Source: Natronoarchaeum mannanilyticum
Lineage (GTDB): Archaea > Halobacteriota > Halobacteria > Halobacteriales > Natronoarchaeaceae
Reading direction: 5' to 3'
DNA: 64,000 nucleotides
Assembly (NCBI RefSeq): GCF_039522665.1
Contig: NZ_BAAADV010000007.1
Location: forward strand, 62,001-126,000
The notes beneath the pieces are model-generated. The model made no database searches. It saw nothing but the letters and a program-made list of their open reading frames with translations, and had not been told where the DNA came from. Each line of letters begins with the position of its first letter. Position 1 is the first letter of the stretch. Shown here one piece after another: positions 9,588-14,595 of the stretch. A program made the position numbers and the translations under genes.

Positions 9588-9932
9588 CTATTCGTCGAGC
9601 CAGCTGCCGGCCCAGCACTCGATTTCGTCGAACACCGGACAGAGCGACTGGCCCTTGTCGGTGAGGCTGTAGTACGTCGCGACCGGCGCGTCCTCCTCCA
9701 TCCGGCGGTCGACGAACCCGAGCTCTTCGAGGTCGTCGAGCACGCGCGAGAGCGTCCGCGAGCTCGCGTCGGTCGACCGTTTCAGTTCGTTGAAACGCTT
9801 CTCGCCGTCCTGCAGATCGTGGAGCACGACGAGGCGCCACTGTGAGCCGATCTGCTCGATCGATTCGATGACGGCGCAGGGCCCCTCTTCCTCCTCGGTT
9901 TCGGCGGTCGCCCGCTGGAGATCAGATGACAT
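9588..9932 (-). CDS. HxlR-family winged-helix regulator
   Basis: This 114-aa protein is an HxlR/MarR-like winged-helix repressor. It has the family Cys (GPCAVIESIEQIGSQW, Cys19), the FNELKRS...SRTLSRVLDDLEE recognition region and the wing YYSLTDKGQSL. HxlR proteins often respond to electrophiles or redox change through this Cys. It is divergent from the DoxX gene, so regulation of doxX and of itself is the simplest idea. The frame extends to 10160 across the intergenic region; ATG 9932 (MSSDLQRAT) fits family length. Confidence 0.88.
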   Translation of the reverse strand: MSSDLQRATAETEEEEGPCAVIESIEQIGSQWRLVVLHDLQDGEKRFNELKRSTDASSRTLSRVLDDLEELGFVDRRMEEDAPVATYYSLTDKGQSLCPVFDEIECWAGSWLDE

Positions 9933-9959
9933 CGGTGATACCTGATTACAGCATTGTCG

Positions 9960-10000
9960 CCGAACGGATATATAGGTTCGGTTCCTAACCAGGTAACGTG
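9960..10000. promoter_or_regulatory. Promoter/operator region between hxlR and doxX
   Basis: The intergenic DNA carries ATATATAG (about 9966-9974) followed by GGTTCCTAACC, a dyad of GGTT/AACC around CCT. This is a plausible TATA box plus operator for the divergent pair; the assignment is inference from position and symmetry only. Confidence 0.35.
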
Positions 10001-10068
10001 ATGATACCACAATCGACGCGTTCGATCGTACCGCGTTCCGACAGCGCCGCGACGACGGGGGTGGCGGC

Positions 10069-10500
10069 GTGAGCCTCGCGCCGCTCGCCCTCGAGAGCGC
10101 CGGCGCAGACGCCGCGTTCCTGCTCGCGCGGGTACTGTTCGGCGGGATTCTGGCGTTCATGGGACTGAATCACTTCCAGAACGCGGAGTCGATGAGCGGG
10201 TACGCGGAGATGAAAGGCGTGCCGGCGGCCTCGCTGGCGGTGCCGTTCACCGGCGGTATGTTGCTGTTGGGCGGCCTCGGGATCGCCCTCGGCGCCTTCC
10301 CGCTGCTCGCGGCCGGCGCGATCGCCGTCTTCCTGATCGTGACGACGCCGCTGATGCACGACTTCTGGGCGGTTCCGGAGGACCAGCAGCAAGACGAGAT
10401 GACCGCGTTCCTCAAGAACGTCGCCATGCTGGGCGGCGCGTTCGTCTTCCTCGCGCTCGCGGGCACCGACTGGGCGTACGCGCTCGGCGTCGGACTGTAA
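10069..10500 (+). CDS. DoxX family membrane protein
   Basis: The 143-aa protein has four hydrophobic segments (about 15-35, 58-80, 82-100 and 118-138). The family signature LLARVLFGGILAFMGLNHF near the N-terminus is followed by the polar MSGYAEMKGVP loop. DoxX-type proteins are quinone-linked or thiosulfate-oxidation-associated in some archaea, but most are membrane proteins of unknown redox or stress role. It starts with GTG at 10069. The divergent HxlR regulator, a family tied to electrophile stress, supports a stress or redox role. Confidence 0.82.
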   Translation: MSLAPLALESAGADAAFLLARVLFGGILAFMGLNHFQNAESMSGYAEMKGVPAASLAVPFTGGMLLLGGLGIALGAFPLLAAGAIAVFLIVTTPLMHDFWAVPEDQQQDEMTAFLKNVAMLGGAFVFLALAGTDWAYALGVGL

Positions 10501-10593: not shown

Positions 10594-11478
10594 GTGATCG
10601 AGGTCGACTCGCTTCGGAAGGAGTACAGCGGGTTCGTCGCCGTCGAGGACAGCAGTTTCTCGGTCGAGTCGGGCGAGGTGTTCGGCATCGTCGGCCCCAA
10701 CGGAGCGGGCAAGACGACGACGCTGAAGATGCTCGCCGGGCTGATCGAGCCGACCAGCGGCGCCGCGACCGTCGCCGGCCGCCCCGCCGGGGAGACGGAG
10801 ATGCGTCGCAACCTGGGATGGGTCCCCGAGGAGTCGCCGCTGTACGAGGACATGACCGCCCACTCGTACCTGCGATTCTTCGCCGATCTCTACGACGTTC
10901 CCCGAAACGTTGCCGACGAGCGGATCACCGAGGCGCTCGACCGGCTCGACCTGGAACACCGCGAGCGCGCCATCGGCGACATGTCCAAGGGGATGAAGCG
11001 AAAGGTCGCCATCGCGCGGGCGCTGGTGAACGATCCGGACGTGCTGATCTTCGACGAGCCCGCGAGCGGCCTCGATCCGCTGACGACCAACTACATCATC
11101 GACTTCGTGCGCGAACTGAGCGACGAGGGCCGGACCGTCGTGTTCAGCGCACACAACCTGTTCCACGTCGAGAGCCTCTGCGATCGCATCCTCGTGATGA
11201 ACCGCGGCGAGGTCATCGCGCGGGGCAGCCTCGAAGAGATCCGCGAGCGCCACGGACGCACCGAGTACCGCGTCTACACCGACGTTCCCGTCGAGGGCGC
11301 CACGAAGGAGAACGGCCGGTTCCGCCGGGTCGTCGAGTCGATGGACGCCGTCGAGCGCACCCGGGAGAGCGCGCAAGCGGAGGGCGGGTCGGTCGTCGAC
11401 ATCCAGACCCACGAGCCGAGCCTCGAAGAGATCTTCCTGGAGATCGCCGGCGAGTCGCCGCGGGAGGCCGAGGCGTGA
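10594..11478 (+). CDS. ABC transporter ATP-binding protein (ABC-2 exporter)
   Basis: The 294-aa ATPase starts with GTG and drives the two permeases that follow. Walker A is GPNGAGKTTT (about residues 36-45), the signature loop is MSKGMKRKVAIARAL (a variant of LSGGQ), Walker B is VLIFDEPASGLDP, and the H-loop lies in VVFSAHNLFHVES. The sequence resembles NatA/CcmA-type export ATPases. Its last four bases overlap the next start codon (GTGA), so translation of the permease is coupled to it. The substrate is unknown. The low-GC start at 10556-10566 (ATAATTTAAAT) provides a TATA-like promoter. Confidence 0.93.
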   Translation: MIEVDSLRKEYSGFVAVEDSSFSVESGEVFGIVGPNGAGKTTTLKMLAGLIEPTSGAATVAGRPAGETEMRRNLGWVPEESPLYEDMTAHSYLRFFADLYDVPRNVADERITEALDRLDLEHRERAIGDMSKGMKRKVAIARALVNDPDVLIFDEPASGLDPLTTNYIIDFVRELSDEGRTVVFSAHNLFHVESLCDRILVMNRGEVIARGSLEEIRERHGRTEYRVYTDVPVEGATKENGRFRRVVESMDAVERTRESAQAEGGSVVDIQTHEPSLEEIFLEIAGESPREAEA

Positions 11479-13523
11479 CGCCCGGGCCGAGCCGGCGGAG
11501 CGTCCGCCAACGCGTCCGCGGCGTCGGCGCTCGGTTTCGGCGTCTCGCCGCCGCGGCGCGGGAGTTCGCCGCCAAGACGCTCCGGATCGCCCGCTGGGAG
11601 GTGACGCGCTCGGCGGGCACGCTCGACCGGCGAACCGTTCTGCTCGGACTCGCGGGCGTGTTGCTCGTCGGCCTGATCGCGCCCGCCGCAATGGGCGGCA
11701 GCGCCGCTCTCGACGAGGGGATCTACCGCGTCGGGGTCGACGATGAGAACCCCTACTACCCCGTCGTCGAGCACAGTTCGGCGTTCCGGCCGGTGGAACC
11801 GGACCAAGACGCGTTCAACCACAGCGACATGGAGCTGCTGATCGACGGTGGTACGATCCACTACAACAGTTCGATCGGCAAGAGCGAGGCGGCGCTCTCG
11901 GAGTTCGCCGGCGCCGTCGAGGCGTACAACTACGAGATGATGCGCCAGGAACGCAACCAGACCGCCGCGTTCCCCGTCGTCGTCGATTTGCGATACGAGG
12001 AGCGACCGCCGATCGACAGCACCGTCAGCGCGCCGGACGGGCAGGACGGGACGACCGGCGGCGGCGCCGGGGACGGGTCGAACGATTCCGGAACCGACGA
12101 CGGCAGCACGGACGGCGGTTCGGGCGACGGGTCCGGTGATGGAACGAACGGCTCCGGGACCGATGATGGAACGAACGGCTCCGGGACCGATGACGGGAAC
12201 GGGAGCACCGACGGGTCCGGTGATGGAACGAACGGCTCCGGGACCGATGATGGGAACGGGAGCACCGACGGGGCCAGTGATGGAACGAACGGCTCCGACG
12301 ATGGCGGCGGTACCGACGGCACAGAGTCGGGCGGCGGCCTGCTGGGCGGCGCACTCGGCGGCGACAGCACCGGGAACTCGCCGGCCGAGATCTCCCCGCC
12401 GTTCCCCATGCAGTCGCTCGTGCTCGCCTTTCTGTTCATCGTCCCGATGAACTTCGTCATCCAGCTGTACGGCGGCTCGATCATGAACGAGCGGATCAAC
12501 CGGCGGGGCGAGCTCATGCTGGTCGCGCCCGTCGGTCGCGGCGCCATCGTGGCGGGCAAGACGCTGCCGTACCTCGCGGCGCTGGCGATCGTCTCGACGG
12601 CGATCGCGCTCGCGATCGGCGGCGGCGGACTCGCGGTCGCCGCGGTGGTCCCGCTGGCGGTGTTGTTCCTGTCGGCGGCGTTCGTCGGCGCGATGTTCTC
12701 CCGGTCGTTCAAGGAGCTGACCTTCGTCACGGTGACGATCAGCGTCGGGCTGAGCTCCTACGCGTTCGTGCCGGCGATCTTCACGAACGTGACGCCGATC
12801 GCGATGATCTCGCCGCTGACGCTGGTCGTCTGGGACCTCCAGGGCGAGGCCGTCACGGCCGCGGAGTACGCGTTCTCGGCCGGCCCGCCGCTGTTGATCG
12901 GCGCGTTGCTGTTCGGGCTCGGCGCCGGCGTCTACCGCGAGGAGGACATGTTCAGCCAGCGCGCGGTCCACCTCAAGGCGCTGGACGCGCTGGCGAACTA
13001 CGCCCGATCTCCGCGGAGCGTCTTCGGCGTCACGGCGCTGTCGATCCCCTTCGTCCTGCTCGCCGAGCTGTTGGCGATCGCGATCCTGTTCGCGCTCCCG
13101 CTGGAGCTGTCAGCGCCCGTACTGCTGCTCTCGATCTCGATTATCGAGGAACTCGCCAAGAGTCTCCACGTGTACGCCGGGTTCGCGCACAACCGCTGGA
13201 CGCCGACGTTGCGCTCGGCCGCGATCGTCGGGTCGGCCAGCGGCGCCGGCTTCTTCGTCGCCGAGAAAGCGATGCACGTCGTCAGCGTCGCCGGCATCAC
13301 GACGCTCGATCTGGGGCGCATCGCGTTCCCCGAGAGCGCCGCCGGCGTGGACGCGCCGGTCGCCGTGGCGATGTTCTTCCTGCCGCTCGCGCTGCACGCC
13401 GTGACGGCGATCGTCTCGGCCGTCGGCGCGCGCCGCGGTCGCTGGCAGTATTCGGCGGCGCTCGGACTGGCGATCGCGATTCACACGCTGTACAACCTGG
13501 GGGTGACCCGCTATGTCGCGTGA
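11475..13523 (+). CDS. ABC-2 permease fused to a PrsW-type intramembrane protease
   Basis: The 682-aa protein starts with GTG overlapping the ATPase stop. Order of parts: one membrane span (about 53-72); a large outside domain (75-310) that ends in a Gly/Asp/Asn/Ser/Thr-rich repeat; five or six ABC-2 spans (about 312-490); and a C-terminal membrane region with all four PrsW protease motifs. These are Glu558-Glu559-x-x-Lys562 (IIEELAK), FFVAE597, His641 (LALHAVTAIV) and His670-xxx-Asn674 (IHTLYN). PrsW proteins are glutamic-type membrane proteases that cut within membranes. The fusion suggests cleavage of the exported substrate or of a regulator during export. ABC permeases fused to the related CPBP domain are known elsewhere, so the principle has precedent. 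Confidence 0.85.
   Translation: MTPGPSRRSVRQRVRGVGARFRRLAAAAREFAAKTLRIARWEVTRSAGTLDRRTVLLGLAGVLLVGLIAPAAMGGSAALDEGIYRVGVDDENPYYPVVEHSSAFRPVEPDQDAFNHSDMELLIDGGTIHYNSSIGKSEAALSEFAGAVEAYNYEMMRQERNQTAAFPVVVDLRYEERPPIDSTVSAPDGQDGTTGGGAGDGSNDSGTDDGSTDGGSGDGSGDGTNGSGTDDGTNGSGTDDGNGSTDGSGDGTNGSGTDDGNGSTDGASDGTNGSDDGGGTDGTESGGGLLGGALGGDSTGNSPAEISPPFPMQSLVLAFLFIVPMNFVIQLYGGSIMNERINRRGELMLVAPVGRGAIVAGKTLPYLAALAIVSTAIALAIGGGGLAVAAVVPLAVLFLSAAFVGAMFSRSFKELTFVTVTISVGLSSYAFVPAIFTNVTPIAMISPLTLVVWDLQGEAVTAAEYAFSAGPPLLIGALLFGLGAGVYREEDMFSQRAVHLKALDALANYARSPRSVFGVTALSIPFVLLAELLAIAILFALPLELSAPVLLLSISIIEELAKSLHVYAGFAHNRWTPTLRSAAIVGSASGAGFFVAEKAMHVVSVAGITTLDLGRIAFPESAAGVDAPVAVAMFFLPLALHAVTAIVSAVGARRGRWQYSAALGLAIAIHTLYNLGVTRYVA
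12138..12299 (+). repeat. Direct repeats encoding the NGSGTDD-type linker
   Basis: The sequence starting GATGGAACGAACGGCTCC recurs at 12138, 12165, 12222 and 12279. The interval is 27 nt once and 57 nt twice; 12165-12221 and 12222-12278 are near-identical 57-bp units in frame. They encode Asn-Gly-Ser/Thr-rich segments of the first permease. Such repeats expand and contract easily by slippage or recombination. Confidence 0.85.
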
Positions 13524-14595
13524 CGGCTCGCCGTGGGGATCGCGACTCACGATCGCGAAGCGAGAGCTCGCGACGCTCAAAAGCGAGAAGACGATCGTGC
13601 TCGCGCTGGTGATCCAGCTGTTCGTCGCGGCGTTCTCGTCGTTCCTCGTCGTCGGGCTCGTCTCCTTGTACGACCCCGGCGGCGCCGAGGGGCAGACCGT
13701 GACGGTCGGCGTCTCGGGCGAGCAGCGCCACGATCTCGCCGCGATCGCCAACCAGCAGGAGGGCGTTCGACCCGTAGTGTACGATACCGGCGAGAGCGCG
13801 CGCCAGGCGTACCGCGACCACGCGGTCGACGCCGCGATGATCGCCAACCAGCGGTCCGACGGGCGGATCCAGGTCGAGACGATCGCGCCCGATTCGGGCG
13901 TCGAGTCGACGCTCGTCGTCGTCTCGCTCCAGGAGACGCTCATGGAGTACGAGCGCTACGAGCGGGACCAGCGGAGCGCCCACCTCGACGCCCGACCGCT
14001 CGGCGTCCCCGAGGTGCCCTCGGAGAATCCCTACTACGGGTTCACCTACACGGTGCTCGTTCCGCTGCTCGTCCTCCTGCCGGTGTTCATCAGCGGCAGC
14101 CTCGCCGTCGACGCCGTCACCGAGGAGCTGGAGCGGGGAACGCTGGAACTGCTCGCGGTCGCGCCGGTGGAACTCCGCGAGATCGTCGACGGGAAGCTGC
14201 TGGCGGCGGCTGGACTGGCGCCCGTGCAGGCCGCGCTGTGGCTGGTGCTGCTGTCCGCGAACGGGACGCCCGTGGCGAACGCGCCCGCGCTGCTCGCGGT
14301 CGCCGGCGCGCTCTCGCTGGCGGTCGTCTCGATGGGGATCGCGCTCGCGCTGGTCACCGCCGACCGGCGCCAGGCGCAGTTCCTCTACTCGTTCGGTATC
14401 CTCACGATCGCCGGGGTGACGACGCTGCTGCCCGAGCATCCGCTGAACACGATCGCGAAGCTGGCGATCGGCAGCCCCGCAGAGACGACCTGGATCGCCG
14501 TCGCTGGCTACCTCTGCATCGGGCTGGCGGCGCTCGTCGGCGTCCAGTTCGCTGTCGGGCGCGTCGACGTCGACCGGCTGCTCGGCTCGGCGTGA
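13513..14595 (+). CDS. ABC-2 transporter permease
   Basis: The 360-aa permease overlaps the previous gene by 11 nt, so it belongs to the same operon. It has an N-terminal span (about 28-50), an outside domain (50-178) and a five-span ABC-2 membrane region (about 180-350), with the cytoplasmic coupling stretch AVTEELERGTLELLAVAPV. This is the NatB/ABC-2 exporter layout. It would pair with the larger permease-protease as a heterodimer under the shared ATPase. Confidence 0.9.
   Translation: MSRDGSPWGSRLTIAKRELATLKSEKTIVLALVIQLFVAAFSSFLVVGLVSLYDPGGAEGQTVTVGVSGEQRHDLAAIANQQEGVRPVVYDTGESARQAYRDHAVDAAMIANQRSDGRIQVETIAPDSGVESTLVVVSLQETLMEYERYERDQRSAHLDARPLGVPEVPSENPYYGFTYTVLVPLLVLLPVFISGSLAVDAVTEELERGTLELLAVAPVELREIVDGKLLAAAGLAPVQAALWLVLLSANGTPVANAPALLAVAGALSLAVVSMGIALALVTADRRQAQFLYSFGILTIAGVTTLLPEHPLNTIAKLAIGSPAETTWIAVAGYLCIGLAALVGVQFAVGRVDVDRLLGSA

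Follow-up and report, generated by a model that had tools for sequence, protein, structure and literature searches.

Known systems linking intramembrane proteolysis with export

In Staphylococcus aureus, the membrane protease Eep and the ABC exporter EcsAB are both required for the conversion of lipoprotein leaders to secreted peptides (PMC7157817), and inactivation of Ecs in Bacillus subtilis is reported in PMC2996298 to inhibit intramembrane proteolysis. Fusions of ABC permeases with CPBP proteases already constitute a named NCBIfam family, NF041647, whose model spans about 636 positions. The PrsW proteases, APH-1 and the CAAX proteases belong to one superfamily, and ABC exporter domains have the topology of this superfamily without its polar residues (PMC6588880; PMC4602095). 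Most PrsW proteins have eight transmembrane (TM) helices, and PrsW has been proposed to link processing with export of polymorphic toxins (Zhang et al. 2012, PMC3482391). A review of the membrane proteases of Haloferax volcanii names HVO_0408 as the only PrsW-like protein and includes no fusion of PrsW with an ABC permease (PMC9263693).

The window analyzed here, a stretch of 64,000 nucleotides from Natronoarchaeum mannanilyticum, encodes an ABC permease with a C-terminal PrsW-type domain. Comparison of this fusion protein with the known systems revealed both common and distinctive features: (i) as for Eep with EcsAB of S. aureus, and also PptAB of streptococci, intramembrane cleavage may be followed by export through an ABC transporter, but the bacterial partners are separate proteins and Eep belongs to a different protease family, whereas the archaeal partners form one polypeptide for which peptide release is suggested by analogy; (ii) as in NF041647, an ABC-2 permease is followed by a C-terminal protease of the same superfamily, but that protease is of the CPBP type (EExxxR) in NF041647 and of the PrsW type (EExxK, FxxxE, H, HxxxN) in the fusion; (iii) the PrsW proteases of B. 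subtilis and the standalone haloarchaeal ones share with the fusion the motif residues in register and the superfamily fold, but have eight helices rather than about five and an Asn in place of K598, whereas the fusion domain is joined to an ABC permease within an exporter gene set; and (iv) in the proposed export of polymorphic toxins, PrsW is N-terminal to the toxin domains and is itself the conduit, whereas here it forms the C-terminus of an exporter protein and no toxin is present.

The fusion protein did not match NF041647 (cut-off 435 bits), and this model exceeded its cut-off in none of 40 related genomes. The permease half of NF041647 distantly resembles the protease-free second permease of the operon, which gives a partial match of 46.7 bits. 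Among open-licence papers, none was found that describes an ABC permease fused to PrsW.

Fusion gene and its operon

The reading frame at 11475-13523 on the forward strand, from which the preliminary description had started, is a genuine gene: it is open throughout, starts with GTG and encodes 682 amino acids. By sequence comparison, we confirm the product as an ABC-2 (type V exporter) permease with a putative C-terminal protease domain of the PrsW type. The stop of the ATPase gene and the start of the fusion gene overlap by 4 bp, and the overlap between the fusion gene and the second permease gene is 11 bp; such overlaps resemble those of translationally coupled operons. In the ATPase sequence, the Walker A motif (GPNGAGKTT), the Walker B motif (LIFDEP) and the signature motif (MSKGMKRK) are all intact. 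The second permease, which had been proposed as a further component of this export operon, is indeed encoded immediately downstream (Table 1). Upstream of the module, at positions 9588-10500 of the window, two divergent genes are present: one on the reverse strand for an HxlR-type regulator, and the other, at 10069-10500 on the forward strand, for a DoxX-like membrane protein.

Table 1. Coordinates and residue ranges of the three-gene module and of the motifs in the fusion protein
Feature	Position	Strand	Residues	Remarks
ABC transporter ATPase	10594-11478	+	294 aa	PF00005, 115.8 bits; DrrA-like
Permease part of fusion	11562-12965	+	about 30-497	six-helix type V exporter TM domain (TMD); full-length model
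Extracytoplasmic domain of permease part			about 76-310	full-length model
Low-complexity Gly/Ser/Thr/Asp loop	12036-12374	+	about 188-300	predicted extracellular, within a disordered loop at about 181-305 of the full-length model; pLDDT < 50
PrsW-type protease domain (putative)	13017-13520	+	about 515-682	PF13367 match; model; APH-1 match; loop charges
Motif 1, EExxK	13146-13160	+	E558, E559, K562	in 100/100 haloarchaeal homologues, 18/18 elsewhere in the phylum, 28/28 standalone PrsW
Motif 2, FxxxE, then K598	13251-13265	+	F593, E597	F593 and E597 invariant in homologue alignments
Motif 3, H in PLxLH	13395-13397	+	H641	invariant in homologue alignments
Motif 4, HxxYN	13482-13496	+	H670, Y673, N674	H and Y invariant
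Second ABC-2 permease	13513-14595	+	360 aa	PF12698, 69.1 bits

In the full-length model, the permease part matched ABCA4 (VIA Z 16.8), ABCA7 (16-17) and NosY (15.9). Its matches to PF12698 and PF12679 are only weak, and several relatives exceed the Pfam cut-off. As a modeled six-helix TMD adjoining an ABC ATPase gene, it has the features by which a type V exporter is recognized. The external loop contains an in-frame tandem repeat at 12128-12297 (57-bp unit, 94% matches). This repeat is rich in Asn-Gly-Ser sequons and could be N-glycosylated.

Assignment of the C-terminal domain to the PrsW family

When the C-terminal 184 amino acids were searched alone, PF13367 (PrsW) was the sole Pfam match, with 30.3 bits against a gathering score of 23.5 (E 3.8e-7); in the genome search the domain scored 26.8 bits. 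The full-length fusion protein gave no PrsW match with hmmscan. The same pattern was observed for the homologues, where PrsW was detected in 2 of 59 full-length proteins at E 0.1, but in 29 of the 59 when their domain segments alone were searched at E 1; of five non-haloarchaeal domain segments, one exceeded the PF13367 cut-off and four had no match. Since the full-length protein lacks a PrsW match, the predicted PrsW domain is a diverged one that is easily overlooked. The only annotated record that we found, on a Haladaptatus plasmid, names the fusion just 'ABC transporter permease subunit', and this plain name fits the missing match at full length. Besides the fusion, contig 3 of the source genome encodes two ordinary standalone PrsW proteins, which match PF13367 with 147 and 139 bits.

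Profile-profile comparison by hhalign aligned the domain to standalone haloarchaeal PrsW proteins with a probability of 92.8 and a pairwise E-value of 4e-7, with the motifs in register, versus a probability of 7.6 for haloarchaeal CPBP proteins; PrsW against CPBP gave 31 under the same setting. A CPBP identity was ruled out by this low probability, by the lack of a PF02517 match, and by the presence of EExxK and FxxxE rather than EExxxR, FxxxH and HxxxN. The fusion of a permease to a PrsW-type rather than a CPBP-type protease, as suggested in the preliminary description, is therefore upheld by the domain-only profile search.

The four PrsW motifs (EExxK, FxxxE, H, HxxxN/D) occur in the domain in the expected order. 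Residues E558, E559, K562, F593, E597, H641 and H670 are conserved in 100% of 100 aligned haloarchaeal sequences, whose residue at the position of N674 is Asn (97%) or Asp (3%). The same seven residues are invariant in 18 homologues from other families of the phylum, where domain identity is 26-36%. Across 77 domains (59 haloarchaeal ones plus these 18), 11 of 168 alignment columns are invariant, and these include all seven motif positions tested; the hypergeometric probability of this overlap is about 5e-10, a rough value because the sequences are related. By these sequence alignments, conservation of the putative PrsW motifs exceeds chance. The preliminary description had listed E558, E559, K562, E597, H641, H670 and N674 and had held that the motif residues should be conserved among close homologues; all these residues are at the positions it gave, and seven motif residues proved to be invariant in the 100 haloarchaeal and 18 distant proteins.

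The motif residues also share alignment columns with those of all 28 standalone haloarchaeal PrsW proteins. The Lys following FxxxE (K598) is a marker of the fusion group, this position being Asn in every standalone PrsW, and F594 additionally distinguishes the group in haloarchaea. In a tree with standalone PrsW proteins, the 77 fusion domains form one group, with modest support (0.71) and a remote outgroup.

Predicted structure of the C-terminal domain

The domain was modeled with confidence (pLDDT 89.7, pTM 0.85) and contains five long predicted TM helices. The eight-helix architecture is thus absent, but it is a trait of 'most' PrsW proteins and hence not strictly defining. The top VIA-align match of the domain is human gamma-secretase APH-1 (Z 11.8, 157 aligned residues, rmsd 4.3), although helical bundles may reach such Z values through a common arrangement. 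With APH-1 as the best match, the model supports the fold of the APH-1/Rce1/PrsW superfamily, short of proof. Rce1 is absent among the VIA matches listed, Foldseek against PDB gave no match under E 0.001, and a sequence search of solved structures returned nothing useful.

The ABC-type TM domains reach Z values of about 7-9 against the domain model, a moderate margin below APH-1. A duplicated ABC permease domain is a less likely identity for the C-terminal part, given this difference and the exact alignment of the PrsW residues. Lys and Arg residues together average 2.9 and 2.3 in the two loops assigned to the inside, compared with 0.01 and 0.35 in the two assigned to the outside. Because these residues are concentrated in the inside loops, the predicted orientation of the protease domain with N-terminus in and C-terminus out is supported.

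Distribution and gene context of the module

When the phylum Halobacteriota was scanned with the domain profile, 197 of 393 genomes had a match, in 82 of the 137 genera. Orthologues were identified in Haloferax prahovense, Hfx. gibbonsii, Hfx. larsenii, Hfx. mucosum and Hfx. marinum, among others. In haloarchaeal loci, the order ATPase, fusion, second permease is retained nearly everywhere the sequence extends far enough; at one exceptional locus neither neighbor of the fusion was found. The same second permease follows the fusion on the 3' side in all 20 extracted loci, 18 of them from outside the haloarchaeal group. In 16 of these 18 non-haloarchaeal loci, a relative of the ATPase is located upstream on the opposite strand, and no such gene was detected in the stretches around the other two. 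Among 30 genomes tested, the second permease gave strong matches in all seven that have the fusion and was marginal (E about 1e-4) or absent in the 23 that lack it. This co-distribution indicates that the fusion and the second permease are gained and lost together, as a unit.

Outside the haloarchaeal order, 17 of 19 genomes encode MCR, which marks methanogenesis or the anaerobic oxidation of alkanes. Because the module reaches methanogens, the fusion is older than haloarchaea. As the same gene set recurs across Halobacteriota, a lone oddity of one genome is ruled out. The preliminary description had left it to a survey whether the fusion is conserved; it is, and its range extends well beyond haloarchaea. 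Many near-complete haloarchaeal genomes lack the whole module.

One copy of the module is located on a 540-kb plasmid of Haladaptatus salinisoli (NZ_CP085330.1). Another contig, CAJXLK010000024.1, titled as an uncultured Bacteroidetes MAG, carries a clearly haloarchaeal fusion gene with the second permease and is probably misbinned.

Comparison of the neighbors at 100 loci identified no substrate-like gene conserved beside the three-gene module, in a six-frame clustering that is noisy owing to antisense frames in GC-rich DNA. The only recurrent neighbors, each at a minority of loci, were the HxlR-type regulator (24 of 100 loci) and the DoxX-like protein (18 of 100). A module with no substrate gene nearby fits substrates that are encoded elsewhere, such as signal peptides. 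A role as the universal lipoprotein signal peptidase is disfavored by the many near-complete haloarchaeal genomes without the module.

Proposed function of the module

The most likely interpretation of the gene content is export coupled to membrane proteolysis, with a putative activity and substrate. Such coupling had been proposed in the preliminary description; the fusion, the PrsW motifs and the gene set on which it was built are now established, whereas proteolytic activity, transport and the substrate stay conjectural, and the halocin-like peptide suggested as one substrate finds no support, since the neighborhood of the module holds no conserved substrate-like gene. We propose, with about even chances, a three-gene type V exporter of the cut-and-export kind, composed of the ATPase and permeases A and B, in which permease A bears the C-terminal intramembrane protease of the PrsW subfamily. 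The PrsW-type domain would be an active intramembrane protease located in cis with the exporter, and permeases A and B would heterodimerize and be driven by the ATPase. Within the membrane and next to the pump, the protease would cleave a hydrophobic substrate, be it a signal peptide, a lipoprotein leader or another membrane segment; the pump would then take up the cleaved fragment and expel it. Against this mechanism speak the presence of five helices rather than eight and the weak match to PF13367, mostly missing outside haloarchaea.

The module might instead be a signaling device: the exporter half would act as a sensor of envelope stress or of a peptide, the PrsW domain would be the first to cleave a regulator bound to the membrane, and export would be secondary. 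PrsW of B. subtilis is such an enzyme, being the site-1 protease of the anti-sigma factor RsiW (PMC9263693; PMC4602095). No regulator gene is conserved by the module, however, HxlR-type genes being present at less than a quarter of the loci, and the strict pairing with the second permease and the ATPase points to transport as the core function. To our knowledge, archaea lack sigma/anti-sigma pairs, which also counts against signaling, and we consider it unlikely. A rather unlikely role is general membrane clean-up, in which leftover signal peptides and orphan TM segments are degraded and expelled without specific substrates. It agrees with the lack of a linked substrate gene and with the presence of the module across the phylum, where its carriers differ widely in lifestyle, but the patchy distribution among near-complete haloarchaeal genomes would be unusual for a housekeeping function.

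The structural match raises the question of whether the domain is an inactive scaffold, like APH-1 in gamma-secretase, with the fold and polar residues kept for assembly or substrate holding. APH-1, the best match of the model, retains polar residues and histidines that are conserved in the superfamily, but it has QExxR where EExxK/R is expected (PMC6588880), whereas E558, E559, K562, E597, H641 and H670 of the fusion domain are invariant in the haloarchaeal and distant homologues and identical to those of standalone PrsW. We thus regard a scaffold as quite improbable.

Implications

Under the cut-and-export interpretation, we tentatively suggest, at somewhat less than even probability, that the module is an ancient archaeal machine inherited over much of Halobacteriota, which combines an ABC exporter and a PrsW/APH-1 superfamily intramembrane protease within a single polypeptide and makes and expels membrane-derived peptides, such as fragments of signal peptides or lipoprotein leaders, possibly serving as signals. 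If so, one conserved archaeal protein, the protease half of which is invisible to full-length annotation, would unite activities that are separate yet interdependent in Firmicutes (Eep/RasP with Ecs/Ppt).
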